A stretch of DNA of 64,000 nucleotides, taken from the NCBI GenBank assembly GCA_013821825.1, contig PNJK01000011.1:1-64000 (forward strand). The letters run 5' to 3'. Within the stretch, counting starts at the first letter, position 1, and every line of letters begins with the position of its first letter. Of the stretch, positions 47,165-47,604 are shown one piece after another. A model generated the notes under the pieces. The model did not search any database. It was not told where the DNA came from and saw nothing but the letters and a program-made list of their open reading frames with translations. Origin of the DNA: Rhodobacter sp. (GTDB lineage Bacteria > Pseudomonadota > Alphaproteobacteria > Rhodobacterales > Rhodobacteraceae). The position numbers were made by a program, and so were the translations under genes.

Positions 47165-47193
47165 TTGCCCCAAACGGCAAATGTTCTATTAAT
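47165..47193 (+). promoter_or_regulatory. Candidate promoter overlapping the LexA box of the DnaE2 fragment
   Basis: TTGCCC (47165-47170) and TATTAA(T) (47187-47193) are separated by 16 bases. The -10 element is the spacer of the LexA box, and transcription would begin at or next to the ATG at 47200, giving a leaderless mRNA. Confidence 0.4.
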
Positions 47194-47197
47194 GTTC
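47183..47197 (+). promoter_or_regulatory. LexA (SOS) box upstream of the DnaE2 OB fragment
   Basis: GTTC-TATTAAT-GTTC matches the alphaproteobacterial LexA operator exactly. It ends two bases before the ATG at 47200, overlapping the putative -10 element, a position that would give tight repression. Confidence 0.85.
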
Positions 47198-47199
47198 CA

Positions 47200-47604
47200 A
47201 TGAACGCAGCGCCCCCTTCCCCCTCCCGGCAAAGGACCGTCTGGCCACGCCCGCCGCAGGCGCTGCCGCACGCGCGGCTGACCGAGCCGCCCGCTGGCGC
47301 CCGGGTCACTGTCGCGGGGCTGGTGCTGGTCAGGCAACGGCCCGGCACCGCGAAAGGCGTGATCTTCGTCACGCTTGAGGATGAGACCGGCACCTGCAAC
47401 GTGGTGGTCTGGGCGCAGGTCTATGAACGCTTCCGGCGGGCGGTCATTGCCGGACGCCTGCTGCGCGTCACTGGCAAGCTTCAGCGCGAGGCGGGTGTAG
47501 TGCATGTGGTGGCCGAACTGATCGAGGATCTGTCGCCCCTGCTTGACCGCCTGCTTGATCCCGCCTTCCGCCACGACGGCACCCGTGCCGGCGACCAGCC
47601 CTGA
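47200..47604 (+). CDS. Stand-alone C-terminal OB domain of error-prone polymerase DnaE2
   Basis: A 134-residue protein. From about residue 30 it matches the C-terminal OB-fold of DnaE2/ImuC: GARVTVAGLVLVRQRPGTAK, GVIFVTLEDETGTCNVVVW, YERFRRAVIAGRLLRVTG, REAGVVHVVAELIEDLS. The PHP, palm, fingers and beta-clamp parts (normally about 900 residues) are absent and no imuA or imuB adjoins. A LexA box and promoter-like elements sit directly before the ATG. It is either the scar of an internal deletion of an imuA-imuB-dnaE2 operon or a reduced SOS protein; the frame is intact. Confidence 0.8.
   Translation: MNAAPPSPSRQRTVWPRPPQALPHARLTEPPAGARVTVAGLVLVRQRPGTAKGVIFVTLEDETGTCNVVVWAQVYERFRRAVIAGRLLRVTGKLQREAGVVHVVAELIEDLSPLLDRLLDPAFRHDGTRAGDQP

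Follow-up and report, generated by a model that had tools for sequence, protein, structure and literature searches.

OB domains of C-family polymerases contact the single-stranded template. Several DnaE2 sequences without this domain were described by Timinskas et al. (2013; PMC3919608), whose domain section is silent on where the OB went; the sections of that paper drawn on here also give an SRDF[H/R] tail for about 77% of DnaE2s. A mutasome domain existing as a protein of its own has a precedent in the stand-alone ImuB-C proteins of mutasome variants, as presented in the relevant sections of PMC6511836 and PMC12926913, although there it is the C-terminus of ImuB that stands alone, and in other systems. 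A free DnaE2 OB gene is not mentioned in the sections drawn on from these three papers, nor in those from PMC6473078, PMC9426580, PMC10883770, PMC11253446, PMC5285347, and PMC10421592. A literature search by title and abstract start, over mostly open-access papers, also returned no free DnaE2 OB gene. Within that scope, novelty is provisional.

The window, a stretch of 64,000 nucleotides from Rhodobacter sp., contains an intact frame of 134 codons at 47200..47604 on the forward strand (P0001). The NCBIfam DnaE2 model NF004225 matches residues 23-119 of the 134-aa protein with its positions 944-1040 of 1047 (E 1.9e-32), and Pfam PF01336 (OB) matches residues 36-111 (E 7.4e-14). By profile match the protein is the C-terminal OB part of DnaE2 only, as an earlier note made from the letters alone had claimed; the full architecture of PHP, polymerase core, HhH, and OB on one chain is absent. 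Membership in the SSB family is not indicated either, as PF00436 scores 13.5 bits against a cut-off of 26. AlphaFold2 models a five-stranded OB barrel with a mean pLDDT of 83.9 and five long strands between residues 35 and 110, which together with the Pfam match places the barrel at residues about 34-111 (47299..47532, forward strand). The 50 Foldseek matches listed for this model are OB-fold proteins of other kinds, with no DnaE among them, and a PDB profile search with the protein gave a single weak OB match. Directly upstream, a LexA-type operator, GTTCTATTAATGTTC (GTTC-N7-GTTC), lies at 47183-47197 on the forward strand and ends 2 nt (CA) before the ATG, where the same note had put it. We consider it likely that the gene encodes the DnaE2 OB domain as a separate, SOS-induced subunit of a two-chain DnaE2.

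The counterpart is found in the same genome. The window's assembly has 234 contigs, is 97.9% complete, and shows 4.95% contamination; a search of it with the DnaE2 model gives three matches, on contigs C1, C9, and C11. The C1 match covers positions 4-940, scores above the cut-off, and stops just before the OB domain, while C11, the present locus, is the sole place in the genome with positions 944-1040 of a DnaE2. The C9 protein falls below the cut-off for the DnaE2 model, and we take it for the replicative DnaE. The C1 protein is 948 aa long from its likely start and has PHP, polymerase, finger, and HhH domains. The earlier note had read the OB gene as the leftover of a deleted dnaE2. That reading is wrong for a genome whose DnaE2 is complete except for the OB. 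The earlier note had also proposed a search for imuA, imuB, and a full dnaE2; the first two turned up as ImuA-like and ImuB-like genes with boxes nearby, and the dnaE2 turned up in its OB-less form. The ImuB-like gene on C112 encodes 565 aa with IMS and IMS_C above cut-off and DUF6504 below; in NCBIfam it matches only Pol IV models, below cut-off, and it resembles the gene that precedes fused dnaE2 in other genomes. The ImuA-like gene on C21 is recognized by a profile built in this analysis (E 4e-23) and by NF033429 (E 2e-8, below cut-off). ImuA, ImuB, and DnaE2 are thus all represented in the genome, the first two as ImuA-like and ImuB-like genes, and the four mutasome genes sit on four contigs with a box near each. 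Exact boxes lie upstream of dnaE2 (C1:116763-116777), imuB (L169:5251-5265), imuA (C21:48326-48340), and recA (C65:10874-10888) in this genome, and about 33 nt before the start of lexA (L370:2282-2296).

The same arrangement is seen in the OB-less DnaE2s of relatives. In all 47 that were fetched, the match runs no further than residues 942-948 of the C1 protein, with a stop codon 0-78 residues beyond the match end. Both polymerase motifs searched for, presumably the catalytic ones, are present in 47 of 47; in two of these proteins (L171 and L183) the match begins at residue 105 or 66 of the C1 protein. At 43 of the 47 loci (17 exact) the OB-less dnaE2 gene has a box with at most one mismatch, mostly in the opposite orientation to that at OB genes; among control windows the figure is 141 of 1,821. 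With the queries used, ImuB was found within about 3 kb of the OB-less dnaE2 at 4 of the 47 loci and ImuA at none. A few OB-less DnaE2s (L152, L168, and L183) end in HPR-like tails, which are suggestive only, hinting at an origin by excision that would have left the tail behind.

The number of boxes alone carries no weight. Four exact boxes occur in the window against 1.8 expected, and 126 in the whole genome against 131 for a reversed control pattern; neither count is above chance, and we rejected any claim of significance from the box alone. Among the matches listed, however, 67 of the 76 stand-alone OB loci (75 named loci and the window) carry an exact GTTC-N7-GTTC, and 54 of these 67 keep the same 2-nt gap to an in-frame ATG. 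For the 75 named stand-alone OB loci listed, the 260-bp windows around the match start hold 67 exact boxes in either orientation, compared with 15 in the other 580,671 bp of these loci, or 0.007 per 260 bp. It is the position and conservation of the box, not its mere presence, that exceed chance, and the OB gene has what is expected of a LexA-regulon member, a conserved operator at its promoter. Elements of that promoter can be predicted from 54 aligned upstream regions among the matches listed. A predicted -35 element, TTGCCC (47165..47170, forward strand), aligns with the family's conserved one, in which positions -35 to -33 from the ATG are T in 100%, T in 61%, and G in 94%; its first base is the first coordinate, 47165, of the earlier note. 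A predicted -10 element, TATTAA (47187..47192, forward strand), lies in the spacer of the LexA box and follows a T-A-T-n-n-T pattern at -13 to -8 from the ATG (T 96%, A 96%, T 78%, and T 89% at the final position). From this spacing the transcript would begin with the A of the ATG or a directly neighboring base, and with LexA predicted to cover the -10 element, a leaderless transcript is predicted.

Other LexA-type boxes were seen along the way. An MmcB-like DNA repair gene in the window (5435-5922, reverse strand; PF06319, E 7e-46) carries an exact box at 5908-5922, with 11 nt between it and the likely ATG, and is probably a second SOS gene there. Elsewhere in the same genome, a photolyase-like frame, named by eye, has two exact boxes that overlap each other near its start (L369 2067-2092; C30:27566-27591). 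A fused dnaE2 in genome G037 also shows an exact box, about 5 nt ahead of its frame (L192 6820-6834), a spacing near that of the free OB genes, and imuB was not found in the 13 kb fetched around it.

The free OB protein is not simply the end of a DnaE2. A W-P-R-P-P motif at residues 15-19 (47242..47256, forward strand) is typical of stand-alone OBs; W15, P16, P18, and P19 are invariant in 41 of 41 aligned proteins of this kind. The pattern W[PS]xPP occurs in 74 of the 76 stand-alone OBs among the matches listed (75 named loci and the window), the two without it being L083, which is cut at a contig end, and L141. It was found in 0 of 103 DnaE2 rows, searched over their last 260 aa. Given the start codons chosen, 28 of 34 further loci (29 from the family survey and 5 more divergent) have the motif; in L012, L025, and L218 it is altered, in the low-GC L219 and L220 it was not seen, and in L221 it sits further upstream. 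The SRDF[H/R] tail of DnaE2s is absent from the 134-aa protein. Across 2,702 pairs, the 74-residue OB core has a median pairwise dN/dS of 0.19 (largest pair 1.28), by a simple method and with high dS in many pairs; pairs with the window's OB core have a median of 0.14 and a maximum of 0.29, and the whole OB protein has a median of 0.30. Purifying selection acts on the OB core. Like a fused DnaE2 and the ImuA-ImuB-DnaE2 mutasome, the system here has the same OB domain by profile, a LexA-type box, and ImuA-like and ImuB-like genes. Unlike in a fused DnaE2, the OB comes from an unlinked gene as a polypeptide of its own; it has gained a W-P-x-P-P arm and, in the window's protein, lacks the fused-type C-terminal tail. 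The OB-less chain would be of the kind for which the domain section of PMC3919608 leaves the OB unaccounted for; here the domain is found in a second gene with a LexA-type box.

The locus can be followed through relatives by its neighbor. At least 80 named loci were found in the genome collection, 75 with a stand-alone OB and five fused (L144-L148); Tabrizicola, Ruegeria, and Rhodovulum are among the genera with the gene. A divergently transcribed 2Fe-2S ferredoxin gene (46760..47083, reverse strand, in the window) lies upstream of the OB gene and within 1.2 kb of it in 72 of the 75 named loci listed, mostly less than 250 nt away. Of the three remaining loci, L083 begins at a contig end; in L141 and L143 the ferredoxin was not seen. 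The stand-alone frame is kept in relatives, and two of the outcomes that the earlier note had named as refuting its observation, missing similarity to DnaE2 and missing conservation of the frame, are contrary to what was seen. The ferredoxin gene also accompanies 29 of 29 OB loci from the family survey and 4 of 5 more divergent ones, and degP lies in the fetched flank of 47 of the 75 named OB loci among the matches listed.

Across the family, free OB and OB-less DnaE2 occur together. The survey covered 149 genomes, one per genus; the OB protein matched 129 of them and the DnaE2 model 148, replicative DnaE included, and classes were set by hand from open-frame length and model span. A stand-alone OB is present in 60 genomes and an OB-less DnaE2 in 58. 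Both are found in 56, the OB alone in 4 (G051, G061, G068, and G118), the OB-less DnaE2 alone in 2 (G044 and G064), and neither in 87, which gives an odds ratio of 609 and a Fisher p of 1.6e-33 when kinship is ignored. The frame itself was examined in 35 of the 60 stand-alone OBs (29 survey loci, 5 further loci, and the window), and 47 of the 58 OB-less DnaE2s were fetched; the rest are classed from search tables. Two genomes, G111 and G141, are counted as stand-alone although the match crosses one TGA, the frame before the TGA in G111 being 122 aa long. Four genomes (G034, G104, G013, and G141) have both genes on a single contig, with over 1 Mb between them either way round. Of the genomes with the OB alone, G061, G068, and G118 are 76-91% complete. 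G051, assembled in 7 contigs and 100% complete, keeps an OB gene with its box (L373), but the DnaE2 model finds no more than two matches in it, of which the better one scores like a replicative DnaE. This OB gene seems to be an orphan subunit, or DnaE2 a recent loss; since DnaE2 is apparently missing, the OB protein can persist without a partner, at least for a while. In G044 and G064, which have an OB-less DnaE2, no OB was found at E 1e-6. The G064 contig ends just past the ferredoxin (L237 1780-2043), at the expected position of the OB, with what looks by eye like the start of a transposase gene, and no close copy of the ferredoxin was found in G044.

Several candidates were set aside. An apparent pair in G009 was read as one fused DnaE2 that spans the record start, and G022 and G119 hold fused fragments at contig starts. 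The stand-alone class also leaves out frames in G021, G091, G095, and G078, which have a fused-type tail and are found on short contigs or at the start of a contig. Not counted as OB-less DnaE2 were G085, with its OB in the same frame, and the fragments of G078, G098, and G142. Beyond the family, 68 of 152 genomes in a survey of the class match the OB protein; bar the window's genome and one family member, the matches listed are in frames of about 890 to 1,771 aa. No stand-alone OB outside the family is certain among these 152 genomes, with G193, G208, and G219 having shorter frames.

The two chains also appear to share a history. A quick tree built from 47 OB-less and 56 fused DnaE2 cores, one pair of them identical, has a single branch between the two kinds, with an SH-aLRT of 89, below the usual 95. 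If the root is among the fused DnaE2s, the OB-less form has one origin, and the tree is consistent with a single origin of the split. A tree of the OB domain, which has 97 columns only, needs two changes. On a recA tree built from the 110 of 144 genomes with a recA match, where 10 of 107 inner branches are well supported, on average 6.9 of 7 independent supported contrasts show the genes changing together and 0.0 show them changing in opposite directions (median p 0.016 by sign test), with G098 and G142 labeled as lacking DnaE2 although fragments of it occur there. Over 22 genomes, OB distances correlate with DnaE2 distances at r=0.82, and the partial correlation is 0.83 given RecA and 0.78 given the ferredoxin; OB and ferredoxin correlate at r=0.41. 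In 999 permutations the partial correlation given RecA was never reached. As a control, RecA is weak, since its distances correlate at only 0.04 with OB and 0.15 with DnaE2. In G083, which lies nearest to the fused side of the DnaE2 tree with its OB-less DnaE2, the OB protein (L221 1377-2543, reverse strand) has WPRPP, a long insertion, a DnaE2-like C-terminal tail, and a box near its start, and no ferredoxin was found in the 3.8 kb fetched. Its features suggest a split in an early or divergent form.

How, then, should the free OB be read? A locus with the OB part alone, under a LexA-type box, could have come from a deletion that joined an SOS promoter to the tail of dnaE2, harmless or lingering. 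We give this next to no credence: the sequence, the box, and the neighbor are kept in most of the 75 named loci listed, and we rejected it in view of the conserved pair and of the OB-less polymerase encoded by this very genome. The complementary DnaE2, the conserved neighbor, and the purifying selection already speak against a recent or neutral scar. The joining of promoter to tail by deletion may be how the OB gene originated in a duplicate copy. A protein that competes with a full-length, fused DnaE2, for example a plasmid-borne one, is brought to mind by G035, where the split pair and a fused DnaE2 on another contig occur together. G035 is the only one of the 60 genomes with a free OB to show a second OB match at E 1e-6, however, and the partner with which the OB co-occurs is the OB-less form, so we hold interference to be highly improbable.

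The free OB might instead have an SOS role of its own, binding ssDNA or ImuB, SSB, or the clamp, with the OB-less DnaE2 working alone. The OB gene of G051, apparently without a DnaE2, would suit this, as would the gain of an arm not found in DnaE2 rows, and some C-family polymerases without OB domains have been reported, to judge from the sections of PMC3919608 drawn on here. But the presence and absence of the OB tracks the OB-less DnaE2 almost one to one, also in independent contrasts, and its divergence follows DnaE2 more than it follows the ferredoxin gene. We therefore regard an independent role as unlikely and keep to a separate subunit of a two-chain DnaE2. Points that count against the two-chain reading are the OB gene of G051, the OB-less DnaE2s of G044 and G064, the missing SRDF[H/R] tail, the SH-aLRT below 95 and the two changes on the OB tree, the higher dN/dS of the whole protein, and the few well-supported branches of the recA tree.

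For such a two-chain enzyme, we propose that DnaE2 was split in an ancestor belonging to this family, at the point where the HhH region gives way to the OB domain. The polymerase would have stayed in one gene, and the OB would have become an unlinked gene, nearly always beside the ferredoxin. Upon DNA damage LexA would be cleaved, and both chains, whose genes bear LexA-type boxes, would be made. The free OB protein may then dock on the HhH end of the OB-less DnaE2, perhaps through the added W-P-x-P-P arm, and would restore contact with the template strand within the ImuA-ImuB-DnaE2 mutasome. We lean somewhat toward a broader reading, in which this is a two-chain C-family polymerase whose small subunit has its own LexA-gated leaderless promoter, so that its supply could gate translesion mutagenesis, and in which the split arose once in the family and has repeatedly been lost or replaced as a pair.

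The role of the OB in DnaE2 can usually be approached only through truncation of the polymerase. Because the OB is naturally separate here, it could be deleted, added back, or titrated while the polymerase itself stays intact. A short gene that is easily left an orphan gains a likely partner and regulon, and the split offers an explanation for the reported DnaE2s without an OB domain.
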